A stretch of 21,322 bases of DNA from a virus. A program made the translations under genes and the position numbers. How positions within the stretch are numbered: position 1 is the stretch's first letter; the number at the start of each line of letters is the position of its first letter. Positions 79-20,843 of this stretch are shown one piece after another. The stretch lies in IMG/VR virus record IMGVR_UViG_3300011115_000652, positions 1-21,322 of that record. The stretch is one strand, 5' to 3'. A model generated the notes under the pieces. That model was not told the origin of the DNA, did not search any database, and saw only the letters and a list, made by a program, of their open reading frames with translations.

Positions 79-747
79 ATGGCGTTAACTAACAAACAGA
101 TCGCGGCGCATTTCGGTTTTACACCGGCCCGAGCTGCGGCGCTTATCCGCCAGGGTATGCCGTTGGATTCCCTGGAGGCCGCAGAATCCTGGCGCCACGC
201 CCGGCTCCTCCGGGGGCAACGCGGCGGCGTGGAGCAACGGGCGGCAATCGTTGTTAACCAGGACGACGTATCGCCCGATCTGGATTTCGAGGATACGGTC
301 GTCCGGCATCGGGAGCTTAAGGAGGCGGCCCGTCAAACCTACATCGTCGCCCGCAACGCCGGGGATACCCAGGCGCCCAAGCTGTATACGACGTACCAAT
401 CAATCGTCCAAACCCTGGTTAAGCTGGAACGGGAATCCCTCGCCCGTAAGATTGAATCCAAGGAATTGATTAAAACGGCGGCGGCAATCGAGCGTTTCGG
501 GCGGGTTATCGCCGAGATCAAATCCGATATGCTTTCCTTTGCCAACGCGGTGGCCAACCAGGTTAACCCGGATAACCAGGGTAAGGCGTATAAGGTTATC
601 GACGAAAAGGTTAACGCCCTTTTGGCCAAATGGTCGGGCAGCGCCGAGGCGGTAATCGAGGAAACCCTGGAGGCCCAGGTTAACGGGGATCGGCCCGATT
701 TCGAGAATATGCCCGGAGAGGAGGAGCCGCCGCCTAATGAAAGCTAA
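79..747 (+). CDS. terS: Terminase small subunit (Nu1-like)
   Basis: DNA-recognition subunit of the packaging motor: it binds the packaging site of the phage DNA and delivers it to the large subunit. The predicted product is 222 residues; lambda Nu1 is 181. I chose the ATG at 79 because the following residues (MALTNKQIAAHFGFT) are a helix-turn-helix of the Nu1 kind, reading on into an arginine-rich stretch at about residues 37 to 45. The frame stays open 25 codons further upstream, but that part is not terminase-like. The middle is charged and helical, which suits oligomerisation. The C-terminus (about residues 205 to 222) is acidic and proline-rich, where Nu1-type proteins contact the large subunit. 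The gene overlaps terL by 11 bases, so the two are probably translationally coupled. Identification rests on fold-like features plus position. Confidence 0.85.
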   Translation: MALTNKQIAAHFGFTPARAAALIRQGMPLDSLEAAESWRHARLLRGQRGGVEQRAAIVVNQDDVSPDLDFEDTVVRHRELKEAARQTYIVARNAGDTQAPKLYTTYQSIVQTLVKLERESLARKIESKELIKTAAAIERFGRVIAEIKSDMLSFANAVANQVNPDNQGKAYKVIDEKVNALLAKWSGSAEAVIEETLEAQVNGDRPDFENMPGEEEPPPNES

Positions 748-2569
748 CGGTTTCGAGAGGGATTTGAGGCATATCCTAACGCCGAACCCGTACCGGCGCC
801 CGGTCGAATTCCTGGAGCATTTCCTTACCCGTATCCCTTATTCGGCCCGCGGTAACGGCGGGGGTTTCTCGATCTCGTCGGCGCCTTGGCTGCGGGAACC
901 CCTGGAAGCAATATTCGACCCGGAGGTCCAGGAGATCGGGGTCCAGGCGGCGGTCCAGCTCGGAAAATCCCTTTTAATTGAGGGGGCGTCCTGCATTATC
1001 CCGGTAAACGATCCGGGGCCGACCCTTATCCTTACGGATATCGACCGTAACGCAAAGGATTACCTGGAATCGCGGTTAACAAGGGTATGGAACGTATGCG
1101 AACCGACGCGGGCGCAGCTTCCGGCCCAGGTCCCGAAAGAGGGGGTTATTAACTTTGCGGCCAATCCCTGTTGGGTATTGGGGGCCAAAAACGATTCAAA
1201 CCTCCACGGGCGTTCGATCCGTTACCTATTCGGCGACGAGGTTTGGCGCTGGGATTCCGGGGCGTTGGCCAGAGCCGAGCGCCGCGTATCGGCAAACAAG
1301 GCCAGGAGTAAGGTCGTATTCGTTTCCCAGGCCGGGTTAGACGGCGGGGAATGGGCCTTTTGGTATTCGGGTACCGATCAAAGGGTATGGACCTGGATTT
1401 GCCCGAGCTGCGGGACGGCGCAGGGGTACGAATGGGAACAGGTTATTTTTCCCAGGGAGGCCAAAAAGGCGACGGGTTGGGACCTTAACGCGGTTAAGAA
1501 GGGTACGACGTACCAATGCAAAGGATGCAAGGTCCATTTCCCGGACCGGGTATCCGTCCGAACCGATCTAAACCTTTCCGGGCGGTACGTCGCCCAAAAC
1601 CCGGACGCCTCCCGACGCGGTTACCATTGGAATTCCCTTTGCGCCCAGGAGCTTGGCCTATCCTGGGGGGAGCTTGCGGTGGAATGCATCGAGGCCAAGC
1701 GCCACCATTCCGAGAATGGGGATAACAGTAAACGCCGGGATTTCTTTATGCAGCGCCTGGCCCAAACGTACAAGGAGGAGGCCGACGAAATCCAGATCGG
1801 GGCCGCGGAGGGTAAGTATAAGATTGGGGAACCCTGGGACGACGAGGGCGGGTTTGTAATGGGTAAACCAAGGACCGGGAATGAGCTTACCGCGGATATG
1901 CGGGCGGCGCCGGATTTCGTCCGTATGCGTTTTATGGGCGTGGATTTCCAGCAATCGGGCTTTTATTGGGTTGTCCGATCCTTTTCCGGCGATGGTCGGT
2001 CCCGGTTGGTTGGCTGCGGGTTCGCCCTTACCCTGGCCGACCTGGTGGATATCTCCAAAAAGAATGAGGTCCACCCCGCCAACGTGTTCCTGGATTCGGG
2101 TTATAAGCCCGACGACGCCCTTATGGCTTGCGCCGCCCACGGTTGGACGGCGACCCGCGGCGACCAACGTAACGAATTCCCCTGGAAGATTCGTACGCCT
2201 ATGGGGAATAAGATCGAAATGCGGGCCTATTCTACGCCGGTGGTCGAGGCCGTCGGTCAAAAACGCTGCAAACGATTCTATTTTTCCAACCTCCGTACAA
2301 AGGATACCCTTTCAATGCTTATCCGTAAGGGGTTGAATACCTACGCAGTAGACGCCCCGGAGGAATACCTTAAGCAAATGCAATCCGAGCGCCGCGAGGT
2401 TAAGACGGGCGGGCGCCCGGTATGGGAACAGATCGACCGACGCCCTAACCATTTTTGGGATTGTGAGGTTATCATTACCCTCCCCGCGATGGCCTGGCGC
2501 CTTATCGGCAAGGCGACGCAGCTGGCCGAGGAACCGCAGCCGGAAAACCAGGAGGCCCAGGAGGGTTAA
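737..2569 (+). CDS. terL: Terminase large subunit (GpA family)
   Basis: ATP-driven DNA translocase and endonuclease that fills the procapsid through the portal. The product is 610 residues; lambda gpA is 641. Visible parts, in order: a degenerate Walker A (AAVQLGKS, residues 71 to 78), a Walker B (YLFGDE, about 163 to 168), and two CxxC pairs at 222 to 225 and 261 to 264, the zinc-binding knot seen in many GpA proteins. The C-terminal nuclease domain has acidic candidates Asp403 (GVDFQQ) and Asp453 (FLDSG). The start overlaps the end of terS. The purine-rich GGAGAGGAGGAG run upstream also encodes the terS C-terminus. Codon use follows an almost strict rule linking the third base to the next codon; see findings. 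Assignment is secure from motifs, length and position. Confidence 0.96.
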   Translation: MKANGFERDLRHILTPNPYRRPVEFLEHFLTRIPYSARGNGGGFSISSAPWLREPLEAIFDPEVQEIGVQAAVQLGKSLLIEGASCIIPVNDPGPTLILTDIDRNAKDYLESRLTRVWNVCEPTRAQLPAQVPKEGVINFAANPCWVLGAKNDSNLHGRSIRYLFGDEVWRWDSGALARAERRVSANKARSKVVFVSQAGLDGGEWAFWYSGTDQRVWTWICPSCGTAQGYEWEQVIFPREAKKATGWDLNAVKKGTTYQCKGCKVHFPDRVSVRTDLNLSGRYVAQNPDASRRGYHWNSLCAQELGLSWGELAVECIEAKRHHSENGDNSKRRDFFMQRLAQTYKEEADEIQIGAAEGKYKIGEPWDDEGGFVMGKPRTGNELTADMRAAPDFVRMRFMGVDFQQSGFYWVVRSFSGDGRSRLVGCGFALTLADLVDISKKNEVHPANVFLDSGYKPDDALMACAAHGWTATRGDQRNEFPWKIRTPMGNKIEMRAYSTPVVEAVGQKRCKRFYFSNLRTKDTLSMLIRKGLNTYAVDAPEEYLKQMQSERREVKTGGRPVWEQIDRRPNHFWDCEVIITLPAMAWRLIGKATQLAEEPQPENQEAQEG

Positions 2570-3003: not shown

Positions 3004-4590
3004 ATGGCCCCCCAAAAGAAGGATAACCTAAAGAAAAAGGTCCGCCAGGCGGTCCGCGACGTTAAGGATTTTGCCAAGCGCAAGGGCCTTAAGGCCAAGG
3101 CATACGGCGGCGCCGGTGGGGGATCGGGCATTTTCTCGCAATTTGAGGGCGCCAAGTATAGCAATAAGCGCCAATGGGTTAATACGCCCTGGCCCGCCGA
3201 CCAAAAGCGGGTAATGACCACGTTCGACCGCCAGGAGCTAACGCGGAAAATGCGTTGGTTGGCGGTTAACGCGGGGCTGGTGAGGCAACTTATTGCGGAT
3301 ATGGCCTTATATTCGGTCGGTTCGGGTATCCGATCCCAGGCCGCGACCGGCGATTCCAATATCGACGCCCTATACGATTCGTACTTTTACGAATGGGCCA
3401 ACAAACCTTGCGAGATCACCGGGCGCTTTAACTTTTGGGAATGCCAGGCCCTTATGAGCCGCCGGGTCGATATCGACGGCGAAATCTTTATCCTTAAGAC
3501 GTATAGCTCGTCCGGCGCCCCCCTTATCCAGCTTATCGAATCCCACCGCGTTGGCGCCTCCTCAACGGCCCAGGGCCAGGTCGATGGGGTTTGGGACGGT
3601 ATTATTTTCAATAAATTCGGGGCCGTGGTCGGGTATAATGTAATCCGATCCGACGGAACGGCCCGGAACGTCTCGGCCAATTCGATTCTCCACGTCTACC
3701 ACCCCGAAAGCTCGTCCGGCGCTCGGGCATATAGCCCGCTGCAACATTCAATCAATAACTTGATTGATATTCTCGAAATCCTTTCCCTGGAAAAGGTTGC
3801 GATGAAAGTAGGGGCCGACGTGGTCCGCACGATTACCCGCGAAAACCCGCAATTTGACGGATCGTCCGCGGATTTCGAGGCGTTTGGTATGCGTCCCCAG
3901 GATTACCCGAACCAGGTTTACCAAAACCCGGAGGAGGTCGGCGCCTTTATCGGCGGTAAGACGGTCGCCTTGGCCCCCGGCGAGGACCTTAAAATGGTCG
4001 AATCTGGCCGCCCAAGCCCGAACACCGTATCGGCCATCGAATATCTCGAAAAGGACAGCTGCGCCGGGTTCCTACCTTGGGCCTTTTCGGGCGATCCCAC
4101 TAAAAGCGGGGGAGCTGCAACCCGCCTGGTCGTGGCCAAGACGGAACGGACCGTTAACGCCCGCCAGGATATGCTTTGCCACCGCGCCCTTACCCCTATC
4201 TACGCCTACGTTATCGGTACCGCGATTGCCAATGGCGATCTCCCGGCGCACGATAATTGGACCAAGGTTAATTGGGTTACGCCTCGTCGTATCTCGGTTG
4301 ACGCGGGCCGCGAGGCATCGGCCAACCAAAAGGATATCGAAATGGGCCTTAAGACGTTGTCCGACCATTACGCCGAGCTTGGGGCCGATTTCCGCCAGGA
4401 GGTCCGGCGCCGAGCTGCCGACGCCAAGCTTATTAACGATACCGCAACCGAATTCGGCGTCCCGCCGTCCTCGATCTTCGCCCCGGCCAATACGCCGTTG
4501 GCCGACATTAACCAGGCCGCCGCGAATGGCGGTACCCCCGGCCCTGGTGCAACCGATTTCCAACCCCTTTTCGACGGGGAACCCTCCTAA
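3004..4590 (+). CDS. Portal protein (lambda gpB family)
   Basis: Forms the ring at one head vertex through which DNA enters and to which connector and tail bind. The product is 528 residues; lambda gpB is 533. The N-terminus is very basic (about residues 4 to 34, rich in Lys and Arg), followed by a glycine-rich linker. Typical lambda-type portal stretches follow: MRWLAVNAGLVRQLI near residue 80, RRVDIDGEIF near 158 in the wing region, and a middle part with SAIEYLEKDS and LPWAFSGDPTKSGGAATRLV (about 340 to 375). The C-terminal 100 residues are helical and then turn Pro/Gly-rich. The gene sits between the gpW-like gene and the head protease, as in lambda. The start at 3004 follows a short leader without a Shine-Dalgarno sequence. 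Confidence 0.93.
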   Translation: MAPQKKDNLKKKVRQAVRDVKDFAKRKGLKAKAYGGAGGGSGIFSQFEGAKYSNKRQWVNTPWPADQKRVMTTFDRQELTRKMRWLAVNAGLVRQLIADMALYSVGSGIRSQAATGDSNIDALYDSYFYEWANKPCEITGRFNFWECQALMSRRVDIDGEIFILKTYSSSGAPLIQLIESHRVGASSTAQGQVDGVWDGIIFNKFGAVVGYNVIRSDGTARNVSANSILHVYHPESSSGARAYSPLQHSINNLIDILEILSLEKVAMKVGADVVRTITRENPQFDGSSADFEAFGMRPQDYPNQVYQNPEEVGAFIGGKTVALAPGEDLKMVESGRPSPNTVSAIEYLEKDSCAGFLPWAFSGDPTKSGGAATRLVVAKTERTVNARQDMLCHRALTPIYAYVIGTAIANGDLPAHDNWTKVNWVTPRRISVDAGREASANQKDIEMGLKTLSDHYAELGADFRQEVRRRAADAKLINDTATEFGVPPSSIFAPANTPLADINQAAANGGTPGPGATDFQPLFDGEPS

Positions 4591-4601
4591 CCAATACTTT
4601 T

Positions 4602-6038
4602 ATGCGTAATCTCTCTAACGATATCCGGGCCAATCGCCCCGTCCTTATCCAACCGACCATTGCCAAGGCGTTCCTGGAACGCTGCGCCGACGTCAAGCTC
4701 CCCCTGGGTACCAAGGCGTCCGATATGTCGGAAATGCTTGCCGCGATCTTCGGCGCCAAATCGGCGTTGGAGAAATTCCCGCCTTTCGCAATCGTGCCGG
4801 TCAAGGGTGTGATCGGTCGTAACCTTTCGGACCTGGAGGCCGCTTGCGGCGCTTGCGATATCGAGGCGGTCGAGGAAATGCTGGAGGACGCGGAACGGGA
4901 CCCGGCAATTACCACGATCATTTTCGACGTGGATTCCCCTGGCGGCACCGCGGTCGGCGTCCCCGAGCTGGCCAAGCGCATTCGGGAATGCTCCAAAAAG
5001 ACCATTAGCTTTACCTCCGGGGATTGCTGCTCGGCGGCCTATTGGATTGCTTCCCAGGCGTCGGAATTCTACGCAACCCCGTCGTCCAGCGTGGCCAATG
5101 TCGGTTGTTATATCGTGTTTAACGATATGTCCGCGGCCTATGCCCAGGAGGGCGTCGCGGTTGACGTTATCCGATCCGGGCGCCTAAAGGGCGTTGGGCA
5201 GCCGGGTACCTCTCTTTCCAAGGAGGGCCGGGATATGCTCCAGGCGGAGGTCCTTGAGATCGCCGACAATTTCAAGGCCGACGTTAAGCTCGTCCGCGAA
5301 TTCGTCCAGGACGTCGATATGGAGGGCCAGGCGTTTTCGGGTACCAAGGCCGCCGAAAAGGGGTTTGTTACCGCCCTAATCAATGGTTTCGACGAGCTTA
5401 TGCAAACCCTGGACGCCCAGGTCGCCGCCCAGATCGAGGCCGACGAGGCGAATGACGCCCGCGCCGGTGTCGGCGGCGAGGCCGAGGAATCCGGCGAGGA
5501 TGAGGGTATGGGCCGTATGGCTGCATTCCGCGCCCTTAAGGGTATCCCTGGCGGTATTGCCGCCTTGATTGCCAAGGCCGAGAAAACCCCGGACGAGGAA
5601 AAGGAGGAGGGTACCGAGGCGACGCCCAAGAAGGGCAAGAAAGCCAAGAAAGCTTCCGATCAAAACGACCAGGAGGACGACGACGAGGAAACCCCGACCA
5701 GCCCGTACTCCGAGGACGACGACGAGGACGGCGAGGAAATGCCCGAATCCGAGGAGGATAAGGACAAGCCGGAATCCGAGGACGACGAGGAAAAGAAGCC
5801 CGACGCGGACGATTCCGAGGAGGACCCCAAGGCCGAGGAGGGCGCCGACGAGGATAAGAAGGACGCCAAATCCGAGGAGGACGACGAGGACGACCAGGAA
5901 CCCAAGGCCGAGGATGAGGAATCCGACGACGGTAAGGAAAAGGCCGAGGAGGAATCCGACACCGGCGACAAGGCCGTCGAAACCGACGAGGAGCCGGAAA
6001 AGAAGGGCGTCCGCAACCGATCCCGCGGCATTTCTTGA
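4602..6038 (+). CDS. S49 (ClpP/SppA-like) head protease with long acidic tail
   Basis: Prohead maturation protease that cleaves scaffold and portal during head assembly, like lambda gpC (439 residues; 478 here). The protease domain spans about residues 60 to 270. FDVDSPGGTAVG (108 to 119) forms the oxyanion strand. Ser144 in CSAAYWIASQ is the nucleophile and Lys196 in RSGRLKG the general base, the Ser-Lys dyad of the S49 family. From about residue 310 to 466 the protein is low-complexity and dominated by Glu and Asp with Lys, and it ends in a basic clip (KKGVRNRSRGIS). In lambda the C-terminal part of gpC doubles as scaffold through an internal start. Here an in-frame ATG at 5508 with GGAGGATGAGGG just upstream could do the same (inference). 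The 11-base leader CCAATACTTTT has no G. The stop overlaps the TTG start of the next gene. Confidence 0.93.
   Translation: MRNLSNDIRANRPVLIQPTIAKAFLERCADVKLPLGTKASDMSEMLAAIFGAKSALEKFPPFAIVPVKGVIGRNLSDLEAACGACDIEAVEEMLEDAERDPAITTIIFDVDSPGGTAVGVPELAKRIRECSKKTISFTSGDCCSAAYWIASQASEFYATPSSSVANVGCYIVFNDMSAAYAQEGVAVDVIRSGRLKGVGQPGTSLSKEGRDMLQAEVLEIADNFKADVKLVREFVQDVDMEGQAFSGTKAAEKGFVTALINGFDELMQTLDAQVAAQIEADEANDARAGVGGEAEESGEDEGMGRMAAFRALKGIPGGIAALIAKAEKTPDEEKEEGTEATPKKGKKAKKASDQNDQEDDDEETPTSPYSEDDDEDGEEMPESEEDKDKPESEDDEEKKPDADDSEEDPKAEEGADEDKKDAKSEEDDEDDQEPKAEDEESDDGKEKAEEESDTGDKAVETDEEPEKKGVRNRSRGIS
5575..6010 (+). repeat. Low-complexity purine-rich tract (GAG/GAC/GAA runs)
   Basis: Encodes the acidic tail of the protease. 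The plus strand is largely GAG, GAC, GAA and AAG codons. The complementary strand therefore reads as an open, Ser-rich frame that I regard as an artefact. The tract is prone to slippage and to length variation between relatives. Confidence 0.7.
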
Positions 6039-6922
6039 GCTATAAGGCCGTTATAACCGATATCGACGGGACGATCCTGGAGAAAGGCGTCCCCGTTTCG
6101 GTCGTTATTGAATACGTCCAGGCGCAACAGCTGCCGGTTATCATCCTTACAAACCGTAAGGAATCGGAACGGAATACGACCGAATCCGAATTAAAGGCCA
6201 TTAACTTTGGATATACCGCCCTGGTAATGAATCCGGGCGACGACCCTGCCCCGGTATTTAAAAAATCGGCGGTTGCCAATATGATCGAGGACGGGACCGA
6301 ACCGATTGATTTTATAGACGATTCCCCCAGGAACCGGGAGGCCGTTAAAAGCTTGGGCGTAAAGGTTACCGACCCTTCCGAAATCGTGCAAAAAGCAAAC
6401 AAGGGGGAACAACCTATGTCCCATAAACTTGACTCCCGCGTTGTCTCAATTCCTAACCGTATGACCCTCGAACAGTCCCTTAAGGCCCTCAAGGCCGCAT
6501 TCGGCGCCAAATCTACCGAGGCCGAATCCGCTGCCAAGGAATTGTCCGCAGCCAAGGCCAAGGTTTCGACCCAGGCCGCCGAAATTTCCGATCTTACGGA
6601 AAAGCTGGCCGCGGTTTCCGGCGTTGTCGCCGAAAAGGAATCCCTGGCCGCCAAGGTCGAGGAGCTTACCAAGGCCCTGGCCGCTGCTAACGAGCTTAAG
6701 GCCCAGGCCGCCGCCCAAATCGAAACCGTCGGTAAGGTCGCCGCCAAGATTGCCTCGTCGGTCGGCGTTGCCCCCGCGGAAATCTCCCCGGCCGATAACG
6801 TCGTCGCCAAGAGTAACGACGAGATTTGGTCCGAATATTGTGCGATCTCCAATCCTTCCGAAAAGGTCGCCTATTACAATAAGCACCGGGCCGCCATTGT
6901 GGCGCACCTGGGTATCAAGTAA
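6035..6922 (+). CDS. HAD-type phosphatase fused to coiled-coil scaffold-like domain
   Basis: A 295-residue frame starting at TTG 6035, overlapping the protease stop. Residues 1 to about 120 are a HAD hydrolase: ITDIDGT (Asp9, Asp11), ILTN (Thr39), a Lys at 76/77 and FIDDS (Asp95, Asp96) are motifs I to IV, resembling the phosphatase half of phage polynucleotide kinases or acid phosphatases. Its substrate is unknown. Residues 143 to 245 are an Ala/Glu/Lys coiled coil of the kind found just upstream of capsid genes, and the C-terminus (SEKVAYYNKHRAAI) looks like a conserved terminal clip. The link, residues 131 to 135 (KLDSR and on), is encoded by copy 2 of the 15-base repeat. Separate translation of the scaffold part could start at ATG 6416 (AAGGGGG 8 bases before it, 168 residues) or ATG 6461 (153 residues). 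Phosphatase confidence is high; scaffold role is inferred from position. Confidence 0.8.
   Translation: MSYKAVITDIDGTILEKGVPVSVVIEYVQAQQLPVIILTNRKESERNTTESELKAINFGYTALVMNPGDDPAPVFKKSAVANMIEDGTEPIDFIDDSPRNREAVKSLGVKVTDPSEIVQKANKGEQPMSHKLDSRVVSIPNRMTLEQSLKALKAAFGAKSTEAESAAKELSAAKAKVSTQAAEISDLTEKLAAVSGVVAEKESLAAKVEELTKALAAANELKAQAAAQIETVGKVAAKIASSVGVAPAEISPADNVVAKSNDEIWSEYCAISNPSEKVAYYNKHRAAIVAHLGIK
6401..6418 (+). promoter_or_regulatory. Possible internal ribosome-binding site and start in the HAD/scaffold gene
   Basis: AAGGGGG at 6401 to 6407 stands 8 bases before an in-frame ATG at 6416. It is one of the few good Shine-Dalgarno-like sequences in the window. It may make a separate scaffold-type product of 168 residues, comparable to the nested start of lambda Nu3. 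Confidence 0.4.
6429..6443 (+). repeat. 15-base element, copy 2 (inside a reading frame)
   Basis: Perfect TTGACTCCCGCGTTG, preceded by C and extended by TCTCAAT, an extension shared only with copy 4. It is read in frame within the HAD/scaffold gene. An in-frame ATG (6461) follows after 17 bases, comparable to the 21 bases at copy 4. Confidence 0.9.
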
Positions 6923-6954: not shown

Positions 6955-7875
6955 ATGTCCACTAACTCCGTCCTCAACCAGGGCCTGGCCCCGCAGTTTG
7001 TCGCCGCCGAAACGCTGCGTACCCTCGTCCCGGTCCTCGCCCCCCTGAACAAGATCGTTACGACCGATTTCTCGGCGTACGTCGCCGAAAAGGGCCAGGT
7101 CGTCCATACCCGTTACGCCGATGCCTTCACCGCCTCGACGTATGACCGCGCCACCGGCTTCGTCGCCGAGGACGCCGTTTCTAACGATGTTGCGATCACC
7201 CTGTCCGACCATAACTACGTTATGACGTCGTTCACCGATACCGAGGTCGCCACGATCTCCCTCGATATGCTGCGCCGCGTGTTTATCGCCCCGATGGCCA
7301 ACGCCACGGTTACCAGCATTTTCAACGGTGTGATCGGCCAGACCACCGCCGCCGCTTATCCCGGTACGCCCTTCTATTCTGGTACCAAGGCCAATTTCAA
7401 CCGCCTCGCCATCGCTGGCGGCGCCACGAATATGACCAAGGCGAACCTTCCGTTTAACGACCGTTCCCTCCTGCTTACGCCGGACGCCTTTGGCCAGCTC
7501 CTCCAGGACCCGAGCGTTGCGCAGTACCTCTCGATTGGCGACACGTCCGTTATCCGCGACGGTAAGGTCGGACGCCTCCACGGCGTTGACATTTACGAGG
7601 TCAACACCTGGAGCGCCGCCCCTGCTGGCGAACACCTTAACGGTATCGCCTCCTGCCGCGAGGGCCACGTTATCGTTACCCGAGTCCCGGCTGCCCCGAC
7701 CACCGGCGGCGGCGAACAGCTCACCGTCCAGGACCCGGATTCCGGCTTCGCCTTCTCCCTCCGTAGCTGGTACGATTGGACCAAGGGCCTTTCCAATATC
7801 TCGGCCTCCTGGATCATCGGCCAGAGCGTTGGTAACCCCAACGCCGCCCTCCGCGTCGTTATCTCGGACCTCTAA
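6955..7875 (+). CDS. Major capsid protein (HK97 fold, P22 coat-like)
   Basis: Main building block of the head, 306 residues. Position after protease and scaffold, and before a strong terminator, is diagnostic. Sequence features agree with the P22-coat branch of the HK97 fold: an N-terminal helix region, then a long strand part (GQVVHTRYADAFTASTYDR, about 48 to 66), a typical ITLSDHNYVMTSFTDTE stretch (about 82 to 98), and the helix MLRRVFIAPMANATV (about 104 to 118). There is no obvious protease-cleaved N-terminal domain. Codon use is more C- and CTC/CTG-rich than in neighbouring genes, as expected of the most highly expressed protein, and the codon-context rule seen in terL is relaxed. The start follows the G-free leader; no alternative start is nearby. 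Confidence 0.92.
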   Translation: MSTNSVLNQGLAPQFVAAETLRTLVPVLAPLNKIVTTDFSAYVAEKGQVVHTRYADAFTASTYDRATGFVAEDAVSNDVAITLSDHNYVMTSFTDTEVATISLDMLRRVFIAPMANATVTSIFNGVIGQTTAAAYPGTPFYSGTKANFNRLAIAGGATNMTKANLPFNDRSLLLTPDAFGQLLQDPSVAQYLSIGDTSVIRDGKVGRLHGVDIYEVNTWSAAPAGEHLNGIASCREGHVIVTRVPAAPTTGGGEQLTVQDPDSGFAFSLRSWYDWTKGLSNISASWIIGQSVGNPNAALRVVISDL

Positions 7876-11873: not shown

Positions 11874-12734
11874 ATGCCCAACCCATCCGATACCCGAATC
11901 GATTACGGCGCCGATCTAACGATTTCGACGCCCCTCCCGTCCGGCTCAATCAATCTGGACGCATTCGGCCTGGCCCAAGCTCAATTAAGTTTTACCGTCG
12001 ATTCCGAGGACGCAAACCTTGCGACCGCCTTGGCGTTATTTTCGACGGGGACGCCTTATCCGTACGACGTAAACGTCGAAATGAAATCCTATAAGGTTAA
12101 CGCTGCGCTTAACAAAGGCGGCGTTGCGACCATTACGGTGGATTATATGGGCGTCCGCGGGTTTTTCGGTTACTCCAAACCCCAGATTACCGGCGTTGCA
12201 ACGTCCACGGCCCAACCTATTGAGGCCCATCCTAATTTTACCAAGATCACTAAACCCTGGTCTGGTGCCTCAATTTTGGCAGGATATCCACCGGCAAATT
12301 TGGCAACGGCCAATAAACCTATTTTCGTCCAGGGGACCGATCCGTATGCGACGTGGACCTTTCGAGGATTCGGCCTTAAGACGGACGGCGAGGTTAATAT
12401 TAAAGCCGGTATCCGGCAATACCTGGCCCCCTTGGCAACGGTCCGAGGCCAGATTTTCCTCGCCCCGATGAAACAGGATTCTGCGGCGGCCTTTATTAGC
12501 GCCGTTGGCCAACGTCTTACAAATCTCGACCTGGATAAGCTTATCGCCCCCGCGTCCCTAATCGGCGCCATTCAGTCCGAGGGCCAGAATTACGCCCTAT
12601 TGAGCGCGGCAAATTGCGAATGCATCGGCAACCCAGACGACCCCGCAGCCATTAAAGTTACTTACGATATTATGGTCGGCGGCGAAATCGGTTGGGACCC
12701 CGATATTTACCCCTTGGCCGACCCCATCCTCTAA
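11874..12734 (+). CDS. Unassigned tail protein downstream of the tape measure
   Basis: A 286-residue protein of unknown family, starting 3 bases after the tape measure stop. The sequence is mostly beta with many Ala, Thr, Pro and Gly (ADLTISTPLPSGSINLDAFG; AQLSFTVDSEDANLA; VATITVDYMGVRGFFGYS; ATWTFRGFGLKTDGEVNIKA) and short of charged helices. A late segment has CECIGNPDDPAAIKVTYDI. Position after the tape measure is that of distal tail or tail-tip proteins. It could also be a tube-like hub protein. I do not recognise catalytic motifs, signal peptide or membrane segments. The overlapping codon context is that of its neighbours, so it is unlikely to be a recent insertion. Confidence 0.5.
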   Translation: MPNPSDTRIDYGADLTISTPLPSGSINLDAFGLAQAQLSFTVDSEDANLATALALFSTGTPYPYDVNVEMKSYKVNAALNKGGVATITVDYMGVRGFFGYSKPQITGVATSTAQPIEAHPNFTKITKPWSGASILAGYPPANLATANKPIFVQGTDPYATWTFRGFGLKTDGEVNIKAGIRQYLAPLATVRGQIFLAPMKQDSAAAFISAVGQRLTNLDLDKLIAPASLIGAIQSEGQNYALLSAANCECIGNPDDPAAIKVTYDIMVGGEIGWDPDIYPLADPIL

Positions 12735-12736
12735 CA

Positions 12737-13798
12737 ATGCAGGACCAAGGTTTTAACGGTACGGGATCGCGGTTTAACTCTCGTTTCGAGGCCGGGTCCC
12801 CAATCTACGCAAAGCAGCTCAACGACCTGGCCGCTGGCGTCCAGGCGGCCCTACCGCAACCCTATTGCGGTACCGGGCCGTCGGTATCCTTCACAGCTGG
12901 CGGCGCCGTTATCGCCTCGCAATTCGATACGTCCGACGGGTCTGGTATCGTCCAGCAATTCCAATGCGTCATTTCCTCGGAAACGACCGGCAGCGGGGAA
13001 TCCGCGGTAACCAAGTATTTCCTTAAGATTGCCAAGGGTAATATTACAACCGTTGCCTCGGGTTTCCCGTTTACCCAAGGTATAAACTCCCCAGGATCGG
13101 GTACCGAGCAGCCAGATCAACCGCCCTATTACGTTACCCCGTCCGAACAGGTATGCATTTTCGATGCGGCAATTTCCCCGCTTGAATCCCGGACGTCGGG
13201 ATCTGACATTAATTCAATCTGGTTTGCCGCCGGTGGAAAATTTGAATTAGACCCCGAGGTCGGCCATTATTACGTTACGGCCTCCTTTTTCGATTATAAC
13301 GACCTTTTGGATTGGTACGCGGACGAGGCGCTTATCCATACGCACGAACCTTGGGTATCGATTGTACCCAATTCCGGGTCCAGCTATAACTCCATTTTTG
13401 CCCGAAATACCCCGCATATTGTTACCGATTACTTGCGGACGGGTAACGCTGCCTTGGGTTGGGCGCCTGGTACCGATGGCATTATGCCGACAAGTATCGG
13501 TTATTCGATGAAAGTTATTGCCCGGATTAATTGGGACGCGGAAAAGGAGGTATGGAAGATCGCCCAAGAGCTGATTGGGCCGATTACCTTGGATTACCCC
13601 GTTATTTGCAATACCCTATTCCAAGACGGCGGCCCCGCCGCCCCTGGGGTGGTTTATGGGACGTTTTTGACCGATAAGTTTATCGGTACAATCTATAACT
13701 TTAATTATTTGGCCAAATTCGCCGATTCTTCGTTTGACGATTCGGATATCCTCGACCCGGCTGTGGTCGAATGGTGGTACGACGTTAAGACGATTTGA
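12737..13798 (+). CDS. Unassigned tail-tip or receptor-interacting protein
   Basis: A 353-residue protein. I use ATG 12737, two bases after the stop of the previous gene, rather than the in-phase TTG 12692, which would overlap it by 43 bases. The N-terminus (SRFNSRFEAGSPIYAKQLNDLAAGVQ) resembles the attachment part of tail-tip proteins: an alpha-helix that names where the fold begins. The rest is Gly/Ser/Asp/aromatic-rich and predicted beta (VCIFDAAISPLES, FELDPEVGHYYVTASFFDY, VVYGTFLTDKFIGTIYNFNYL), typical of exposed tail proteins. No enzyme motif is visible. It stands before the fibre gene pair, so a tail tip or adhesin role is likely but not shown. Confidence 0.5.
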   Translation: MQDQGFNGTGSRFNSRFEAGSPIYAKQLNDLAAGVQAALPQPYCGTGPSVSFTAGGAVIASQFDTSDGSGIVQQFQCVISSETTGSGESAVTKYFLKIAKGNITTVASGFPFTQGINSPGSGTEQPDQPPYYVTPSEQVCIFDAAISPLESRTSGSDINSIWFAAGGKFELDPEVGHYYVTASFFDYNDLLDWYADEALIHTHEPWVSIVPNSGSSYNSIFARNTPHIVTDYLRTGNAALGWAPGTDGIMPTSIGYSMKVIARINWDAEKEVWKIAQELIGPITLDYPVICNTLFQDGGPAAPGVVYGTFLTDKFIGTIYNFNYLAKFADSSFDDSDILDPAVVEWWYDVKTI

Positions 13799-16092: not shown

Positions 16093-16869
16093 ATGCGCCC
16101 CCTCCTGGCCCTCGTTTGCGTTGCGTTGGCCGGTTGCGCCACGCCCAAGAAGGACCCGGAACCGCCCGTCGTCGTCCAGGCCGCCGCGTCCCAAGGCGCC
16201 TTGCAAACGGTAGGCGAGAAGATCGACCAATCGGATTCCCGCGTGGCCGCCGCCGTGGCCGTGGTCGTCGAGAATAAGGACAAGCCCGCCGTGGTCGAGG
16301 CCGAGGGTAAGCTGGCCCTTTCCTATTTACCCGCCCCGACATCCGGCGATCTGGCATACGCCCGCCAACGTGCCGCCGCCCAAGACGCAAAGGCGTACGC
16401 CGACCAAATGGCCTTTGCCAAGGGGTTCCTGGCCAAGATTGATGCCGAATGGGCCGCCGCCGAGGCCCAATCCAAGCGCAACGCCGCCGACCTGGCTGCC
16501 GCCTTAACCAAGGTTAATCAGCTGGAGGCCAAGGTCCGTACGGTCCAGCAGGAGGCCGACGAGCGTATCCGTAAGATCGAGGCCGAGGCGTCCCGCAATA
16601 TCTGGACCCTAACCGCCGCGGGGTTGGCAATCGCCGGGGCCGCCGCATCGGCGTTCCTGGGGTTCCGTACCGGCGGTGTCCTCCTCGTATGCGCCGCCTT
16701 TTGCGGGGCCGTCCCTCATATCTACGGGTCCGCTTTTTTCCCTTGGGTTGCGGGGTTTACCCTGGCCGCCGCCGCGGGCCTTGGCCTATGGCGCCTTTAC
16801 GATTACGTCCGCGATCTTAACGCCGAGAAGGACGGCGACCGTTCCACCGATGGGCCTCCGTCGTCCTAA
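16093..16869 (+). CDS. Lipoprotein with coiled coil and three membrane helices
   Basis: A 258-residue protein of an unusual build. The N-terminus MRPLLALVCVALAGC is a lipoprotein signal with the lipobox LAGC and Cys15 as the lipidated residue. A Pro/Val-rich linker follows, then a coiled-coil region (about residues 95 to 168). The C-terminal third has three hydrophobic helices (about 170 to 190, 193 to 212 and 216 to 235) and a charged tail ending DGPPSS. Lipid anchor, coiled coil and membrane helices in one chain recall a fused (unimolecular) spanin, or a superinfection-exclusion or lysis-control protein. The organisation differs from classic spanins, which have one membrane helix. Position between fibre and holin supports lysis. 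It overlaps the next gene by 20 bases. Confidence 0.55.
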   Translation: MRPLLALVCVALAGCATPKKDPEPPVVVQAAASQGALQTVGEKIDQSDSRVAAAVAVVVENKDKPAVVEAEGKLALSYLPAPTSGDLAYARQRAAAQDAKAYADQMAFAKGFLAKIDAEWAAAEAQSKRNAADLAAALTKVNQLEAKVRTVQQEADERIRKIEAEASRNIWTLTAAGLAIAGAAASAFLGFRTGGVLLVCAAFCGAVPHIYGSAFFPWVAGFTLAAAAGLGLWRLYDYVRDLNAEKDGDRSTDGPPSS

Positions 16870-17137
16870 AGTTATCGTCCGAAAGCTCGGGCGAGAGGGC
16901 GCTTGGGGCCAATGTCATTACGACCCGGCCGCCCCGACCGTGGAAATCGACCCCCGCCTCGGGGCCAAACGCCGGTTGGAGGTCCTCGTCCACGAGGCCG
17001 TCCATTTGTTTTTCGGTCCCGATCTTCCCGAGGCCAAGGTAGACGCAGCGGGTAAATATATCCGCGACGTCCTTTGGTCGCAAAATTACCGCCAGGTCCT
17101 TCTGGAAGCTAACGCCAAACCTCCGCGTATTTCGTGA
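16850..17137 (+). CDS. Mini HExxH protein (putative zinc metallopeptidase)
   Basis: A 95-residue protein; I start it at ATG 16850, inside the end of the lipoprotein gene. Residues 48 to 52 read HEAVH, matching HExxH, the zinc-binding catalytic motif of gluzincin-type metallopeptidases; the preceding part (EVLVHEAVHLFF) has the hydrophobic helix pattern of such sites. A third ligand could be Glu60 or Asp63 (LPEAKVDAAG). At 95 residues it is far shorter than usual zincins, so it may be a minimal SprT/ImmA-like fold or have lost activity. It lies in the lysis cluster, but a role in lysis, anti-repressor cleavage or host-protein removal cannot be told apart. Its stop overlaps the GTG start of the holin gene (GTGA). 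Confidence 0.6.
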   Translation: MGLRRPKVIVRKLGREGAWGQCHYDPAAPTVEIDPRLGAKRRLEVLVHEAVHLFFGPDLPEAKVDAAGKYIRDVLWSQNYRQVLLEANAKPPRIS

Positions 17138-19133: not shown

Positions 19134-19214
19134 TCCGACCGACATATCCGGCGCAGGGGTTGATTTTCATTTGGCCCGCTGCGTCGGTATTGTCCAAATC
19201 ATATGCCTATACCT

Positions 19215-20843
19215 ATGCGTTACATATCCGTTTGCTCGGGAATGGAGGCGGCGACCGTCGCCTGACACCCCCTGGGTTGGACCCCCATCGCCTTTTCCGA
19301 GATCGAACCTTTCCCCTCCGCACTCCTAAAACACAAATACCCAAATATCCCTAATTATGGCGACCTCACAAAATTCGACGAATGGCCCGTTTCAAATGGA
19401 GATGTGGACCTCATCGTCGGCGGGACACCCTGCCAAGCTTGGTCCGTCGCCGGTAAGCGGTTGGGCCTCGACGATCCTCGGGGCCGCGTCGCCCTCGCAT
19501 ATGCTGGCCTTATTGAAAAACTCCGACCCAAATGGATTGTTTGGGAAAACGTGCCAGGCGTCTATTCAGCAGGGAAGCCCGGAGGATCCGATTTCGCCGC
19601 CTTTGTCGGGACGTTGGTTAAACTCGGGTATCATATCGCCTACCGAACGCTTAACGCTGAATACTTCGGAGTCCCGCAGCGACGCCGTCGATGCATACTT
19701 GTCGGATATCTTGGAGATTGGCGACCTGCCGCGGCGGTACTTTTTGAGTCCGAAAGCTTGCGCAGGGATATTGAGAAGGGCCGAAAGAAGGGGCAAGGCG
19801 TTGCCAACGGCCCTCAAGGCGGCGTTGGTCCAGGCGTCGAACAATCAAAAGGATTAAACACCGTATGCGCCACCGGCGATACGACCCATTCCCTAACGGC
19901 CTCGCATCGGGGTTCCGAGGACGGGACGGGTCGAGGTACGCCGATTGTTTGCGCCACGGGTTCGACGACCCACGCCTTAACCGCCTCGTCGAACAAGGGG
20001 GCCACCGAGGATGGGACGGGTCGAGGTACCCCTATCGTTATAGATCGGGCGGCGTTCAACCAGGGGGTTAACGCCCAATACGAACCGCATATCGGCGAAT
20101 CCGAGACAATGGATACCCTTATTTCCAAAGGCCCCCACGCGGTCGGCGTACCTATGCCAATCCCAATCCAAGACGGTCGAGATATTGAAAAGAAGCAAAA
20201 CGGCCTTGGGATTGGCCAACCTGGAGATCCGTCTTATACGATTGATACGACCGGGGCGCAAGCTGCCGCAATTCCTTTCCGCAAATCCAAGAGGGCGGCG
20301 ACCGATAAGGACGACGAAACTTGGGTCGAGGCCGACAAGGCGAATACCCTTAACCTTTTCGATCTCGGCGACACGCGGACGACCCACGCCATCGTCGAAC
20401 CCGTCGCATTCCAACCTGGAAACCTAATGCGTCGGGCCGGTTCCGATCCATCGACCGAGGTTTTTCCGACGGTCGAATGCGACACCGGCGACCAATCGCC
20501 CCACGTTGCGTACCCTATGGCGTTCGACGCCTATAACCAAACGGTTTCCGATACGGCCCAAACAATCAATTCCGCCAGGACGGGGATTCAGCACGTCGGC
20601 GGCGTATTAAACCCGGCCCACGCTATGGCCGTCCGACGCCTTACGCCGGAGGAATGCGAGGCCCTCCAAGGGTTCCCCAAGGGATATTCCCGTATCCCGT
20701 GGAAAGGCAAACCCGCCGAGGAATGCCCCGACGGCCCGCGTTACAAAGCTTGCGGCAATTCTATGGCCGTCCCCGTTATGCGCTGGGTCGGCGAACGCAT
20801 CGCCGAGGTTGAGAAACTCCTTTCCGAACAAGCCAAACCCTAA
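19215..20843 (+). CDS. C5-cytosine DNA methyltransferase, interrupted by an in-frame UGA
   Basis: Transfers methyl from S-adenosylmethionine to C5 of cytosine, usually to protect phage DNA from restriction. Reading from ATG 19215: motif I region (ISVCSGMEAATVA, then UGA at codon 17), motif II (SEIEPFPSALLKHKYPNIP), motif IV with catalytic Cys73 (GGTPCQAWS), motif VI (ENV, 111 to 113), motif VIII (QRRRR, 155 to 159), a long specificity part with two CATGxTTH units, motif IX (RRLTPEECEALQGFP) and motif X (GNSM, 514 to 517). The frame is unbroken except for the UGA. Without it, translation from GTG 19404 gives 479 residues that lack the cofactor motif. Relatives that I know have Trp at this place (VAWHPLGW). 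Possibilities: nonsense mutation, read-through, sequencing error. Confidence 0.85.
19263..19265 (+). other. In-frame UGA codon in methyltransferase motif I
   Basis: TGA at codon 17 of the frame from ATG 19215. It is followed by C (UGAC), a context known to be leaky. Elsewhere in the window UGA ends genes normally (6036, 9664, 13796, 17135, 17509) and Trp is TGG throughout, so general reassignment of UGA to Trp is not supported. Confidence 0.85.
19863..20036 (+). repeat. Imperfect tandem duplication in the methyltransferase specificity region
   Basis: Unit 1 (19863 to 19946, 28 codons) and unit 2 (19947 to 20036, 30 codons) both encode VCATGxTTHxLTAS followed by EDGTGRGTPI. The units differ at many third positions, so the duplication is old. 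Such units are common in this phage methyltransferase family and are part of its variable, non-catalytic region. Confidence 0.7.

Follow-up and report, generated by a model that had tools for sequence, protein, structure and literature searches.

A lone in-frame UGA at a conserved tryptophan codon in an otherwise intact phage C5-cytosine methyltransferase gene

Orphan C5-cytosine methyltransferases of phages (Pfam PF00145; PHROG phrog_116) have a set order of motifs that includes PCQ, ENV and a conserved C-terminal block, with a variable region in between. The gene described here has the same arrangement and is an ordinary member of this group except for an in-frame UGA at Trp17; its closest solved relative by sequence is M.HhaI. 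Leaky UGA read-through genes of bacterial viruses, such as that for the Q-beta coat read-through protein, likewise have an in-frame UGA that interrupts an open frame. In known genes of this kind conservation extends to the stop, and both of their products have a use, whereas the stop reported here occurs in a single record and would leave a product of just 16 residues. Lone nonsense codons in metagenome contigs provide a further comparison: they show the same single stop, intact frame and intact relatives, and we found no difference between them and the present case.

The stretch of DNA analysed here (the window) is an entire IMG/VR record of 21,322 bases and, judged against its sisters, appears to cover the left two-thirds of a tailed phage genome (Table 1). 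Downstream (3′) of the major head protein gene lie tail genes, followed by small genes and the methyltransferase. Three syntenic sister records of 27–33 kb (G001, G003 and G004), with terminase proteins 92–93% identical to that of the window, carry a methyltransferase at the same position. A terminase search in bacterial genomes returned no relative, and the nearest terminase of a named phage, that of Verrucomicrobia phage P8625, is merely 23.5% identical, so that no host could be assigned. The remaining window genes are free of stops when compared with the sisters, and the record is therefore not generally poor; a single wrong base within 21 kb is entirely possible.

Table 1. Features of the window, with positions counted from its first base.
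Feature	Position	Strand	Basis or remark
C5-cytosine DNA methyltransferase frame, 542 codons, one internal TGA	19215..20843	+	translation, PF00145
TGA replacing conserved Trp17 codon (TGG in relatives)	19263..19265	+	translation, relatives
16-codon peptide MRYISVCSGMEAATVA that ordinary termination would leave	19215..19262	+	translation
Frame from next listed start, GTG, 479 aa	19404..20843	+	PF00145 from profile position 62
Variable target-recognition-like region; contains an imperfect repeat of 35 nt at a spacing of 90	19861..20620	+	
Terminase	737-2569		
Lambda-type portal	3004-4590		
S49 protease	4602-6038		
Major head protein	6955-7875		
TGA-terminated gene with stop at 17137	16844-17137		
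Fifth TGA-terminated frame	12692-13798		sister comparison covered the other four only

An earlier note had described a single methyltransferase frame from ATG 19215 that is broken by TGA at codon 17 and nowhere else, and translation bears this out; a further in-frame ATG lies upstream, at 19203. Each of the other five frames of the interval contains 7–19 stops, and the open methyltransferase frame is thus no accident. The part beyond the stop scores far above the curated cut-off of PF00145 (E = 1.6e-40, 140 bits; cut-off 22) and also matches phrog_116, DNA methyltransferase, while the intact sister copy matches PF00145 from profile position 1 (3e-46, 158.8 bits). SAM-binding motif I and the catalytic PCQ share one frame, but under the standard code the stop between them keeps them out of a single translated product. 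When the intact sister is aligned to M.HhaI (gap-free from query residue 2, HhaI residue 13), codon 17 corresponds to Leu28, approximately 8 residues past the FxGxG-like turn (CSGME). The TGA had been placed within motif I; it does fall in the tail of that motif, but not in the loop that contacts SAM.

The variable region has features of its own. Its imperfect repeat lies at 19861–20040, with 89% identity between the copies. The length of the methyltransferase protein varies among the sisters, and the differences in length of the variable region suggest modular change of target recognition.

Relatives had been said to carry Trp where the window has TGA, and in the alignments they do so without exception. 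Trp occupies this column in 75/75 of a first set of viral relatives, in all 168 distinct relatives from viral contigs and in 33 of the 33 alignable copies from bacterial genomes, and its codon is TGG wherever it was read. All three syntenic sisters have TGG, from which the window differs by a single G-to-A change. A scan of IMG/VR viral contigs for the family motif carrying TGA gave no match, while the TGG form of the motif, used as a control, gave at least 120. Near-identical strains were sought with the exact DNA around codon 17, and none was found, a weak result in that the scanned records may omit such strains. Conservation of the stop across relatives, as in programmed UGA read-through, is therefore absent (0/168 distinct viral relatives, 0/33 genome copies).

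How often lone stops arise in this family bears on how the TGA should be read. One of 198 viral relatives that have the N-terminal part, L022, likewise contains a lone in-frame stop, and isolated stops at conserved positions are to be expected in single metagenome contigs from time to time. TGG becomes TGA by a transition; besides codon 17, this gene has 46 further transition routes to a stop, 18 of them in Trp codons. TGA at a Trp codon is therefore among the likeliest single nonsense outcomes, and the coincidence of the stop with Trp, being expected, is no evidence of read-through. In the L022 methyltransferase the stop is a TAA near codon 56, where its near relatives have Gln. As a source of the change in the window, we considered methylation-driven deamination at the CCTGG that the ancestral codon presumably formed, and rejected it on our own reasoning, since the changed base is not paired with the cytosine methylated by Dcm-type enzymes.

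Apart from the stop, the gene shows no decay. Over the first 190 codons, dN/dS was 0.14–0.21 between the window and the sisters and 0.09–0.20 among the sisters; over the last 72 codons the corresponding ranges were 0.16–0.25 and 0.13–0.30. The frame is under purifying selection, and the window values match those among the sisters. Within the first 175 codons there are six departures from columns that are at least 95% conserved, and the same six occur in all three sisters, leaving the TGA as the sole private departure of the window gene from strongly conserved columns. Private to the window branch are, apart from the stop, 7 amino-acid changes and 10 synonymous codons, compared with 7 and 11 for the intact sister G001. 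In a simple Poisson calculation of modest power, absence of constraint gave P = 0.05 over half of the window branch and P = 0.003 over the whole of it. The calculation accordingly disfavours a loss of constraint that lasted for more than about half of the branch, and a shorter, more recent loss is fully compatible with the data. The earlier observation that the frame shows no further decay thus holds up, as does the suggestion of a recent change, which fits a single private TGA in an otherwise intact frame; with no further decay and no other private departure from strongly conserved columns, the stop is of recent origin or else a mistake in the record.

Based on these comparisons, we consider it highly probable that we are dealing with an ordinary orphan C5-cytosine methyltransferase gene of a phage, with an isolated G-to-A nonsense change at Trp17. 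The change would be either a null allele of very recent origin in this phage (or a minority variant that the consensus picked up) or an erroneous base call in the metagenome contig. If the change is real, translation would stop at codon 17, leaving a 16-residue peptide; any protein restarted farther downstream would be inactive for want of the SAM-binding motifs, and full-length enzyme would arise at most in trace amounts through background misreading of UGA by the host Trp-tRNA. An early stop in an otherwise intact, selected frame also fits occasional functional read-through, and this counts against the preferred explanation, as does the chance that near-identical records escaped the scans and that the TGA is fixed throughout the population.

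UGA is the leakiest stop codon, and its read-through in bacteria inserts mostly Trp (PMC11126739), which is the family residue here and would restore the normal protein. A host Trp-tRNA that read the codon at a useful rate could thus supply a little full-length enzyme from an intact frame under purifying selection, perhaps as deliberate dosage control. We regard this as unlikely. Intact codons downstream of a stop give no preference to read-through over a recent lesion or a record error, and are in themselves no indication of recoding; moreover, TGA is present in no relative and is a working stop in this phage. Neither a suppressor tRNA nor a stimulatory element came to light: no tRNA genes were found in the window or the three sister records, there was no match to Rfam elements, and structure after the stop, including a check for selenocysteine insertion, did not exceed chance (fold z = 1.23), the window being a fragment of a phage with no assigned host genome. 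Read-through of UGA reaches approximately 12% in E. coli and only 0.04–0.08% in two Pseudomonas species (PMC9481147), and with such variation among species and no host assigned, its background level is not predictable. The C that follows the stop had been taken as a sign of leakiness, but it is the first base of the His18 codon, with TGGC in 63 of 75 relatives. Because it is set by the usual His codon, it is not a sign of selection for leakiness, and the base singled out as raising read-through at this position is G, not C (PMC11126739). The proposal of functional read-through is therefore not sustained by these results.

The two other readings that we considered fare worse. A shorter functional protein could start downstream of the TGA, and the long frame that opens at GTG 19404 retains the PCQ, ENV and QRRRR motifs together with the C-terminal part. 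It lacks SAM-binding motifs I–III, however, as had been anticipated for any product made without read-through; no intact alternative cofactor motif is present downstream, and relatives carry the N-terminal part, all of which makes such a protein very unlikely. A variant code in the phage or its host, in which UGA specifies Trp (code 4-like), would account for a lone in-frame TGA at a Trp site, and UGA-to-Trp recoding is found in some bacteria (PMC13092985), as is stop reassignment in some phages (PMC11210395). We give it next to no credence. TGA serves as the stop of four window genes (at 6038, 9666, 17137 and 17511) and of their counterparts in each of the sisters, the approximately 6,100 codons of the other window genes contain 0 in-frame TGA as against 92 TGG, and no tRNA gene was found at all. 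As the general code of the phage genome, UGA = Trp is refuted by the use of TGA as a stop and by the lack of any other in-frame TGA.

Several other features of these phages were observed. A 15-base element, TTGACTCCCGCGTTG, occurs in five exact copies on the + strand (2709, 6429, 7971, 9663 and 13814; chance 0.02), close to or directly at the starts of genes. The three sisters keep every copy at the same junction although the surrounding DNA is approximately 76–86% identical, and three copies are present in L099. The element is similar to sequences associated with gene starts in some mycobacteriophages; it may have a role in regulation or as a recombination boundary, and the repeat is arguably more interesting than the methyltransferase stop. 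A stretch of approximately 390 bases at 6039–6428, which the three sisters lack, codes for a HAD-type phosphatase-like domain (phrog_415 polynucleotide kinase, 2.6e-13; PF13344 at E = 2e-5, which does not reach the cut-off of that profile). This insert is in one open frame with the next gene, ahead of the major head protein, and ends exactly at the TTGACTCCCGCGTTG copy at 6429. Between 18541 and 20864, several genes start in a CCTATG context, often AATCCTATG, without an obvious Shine-Dalgarno sequence, hinting at a host that initiates without one. Beyond the part covered by the window, sister G003 (L207:7896–8573) has a second, short C5-methyltransferase-like gene (PF00145, 9.4e-8; phrog_757, 8.4e-26). 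If the phage of the window has this gene as well, it might partly make up for loss of the first enzyme.

An isolated nonsense change or base-call error at Trp17 remains our preferred reading of the methyltransferase gene. We think it decidedly unlikely that the UGA is real and fixed in the phage lineage, with host misreading providing a small, host-dependent dose of full-length methyltransferase. Were the UGA shown to be both fixed and read through, modification of the phage DNA would depend on the leakiness of host UGA decoding, and would thereby be tied to the fidelity of host translation.
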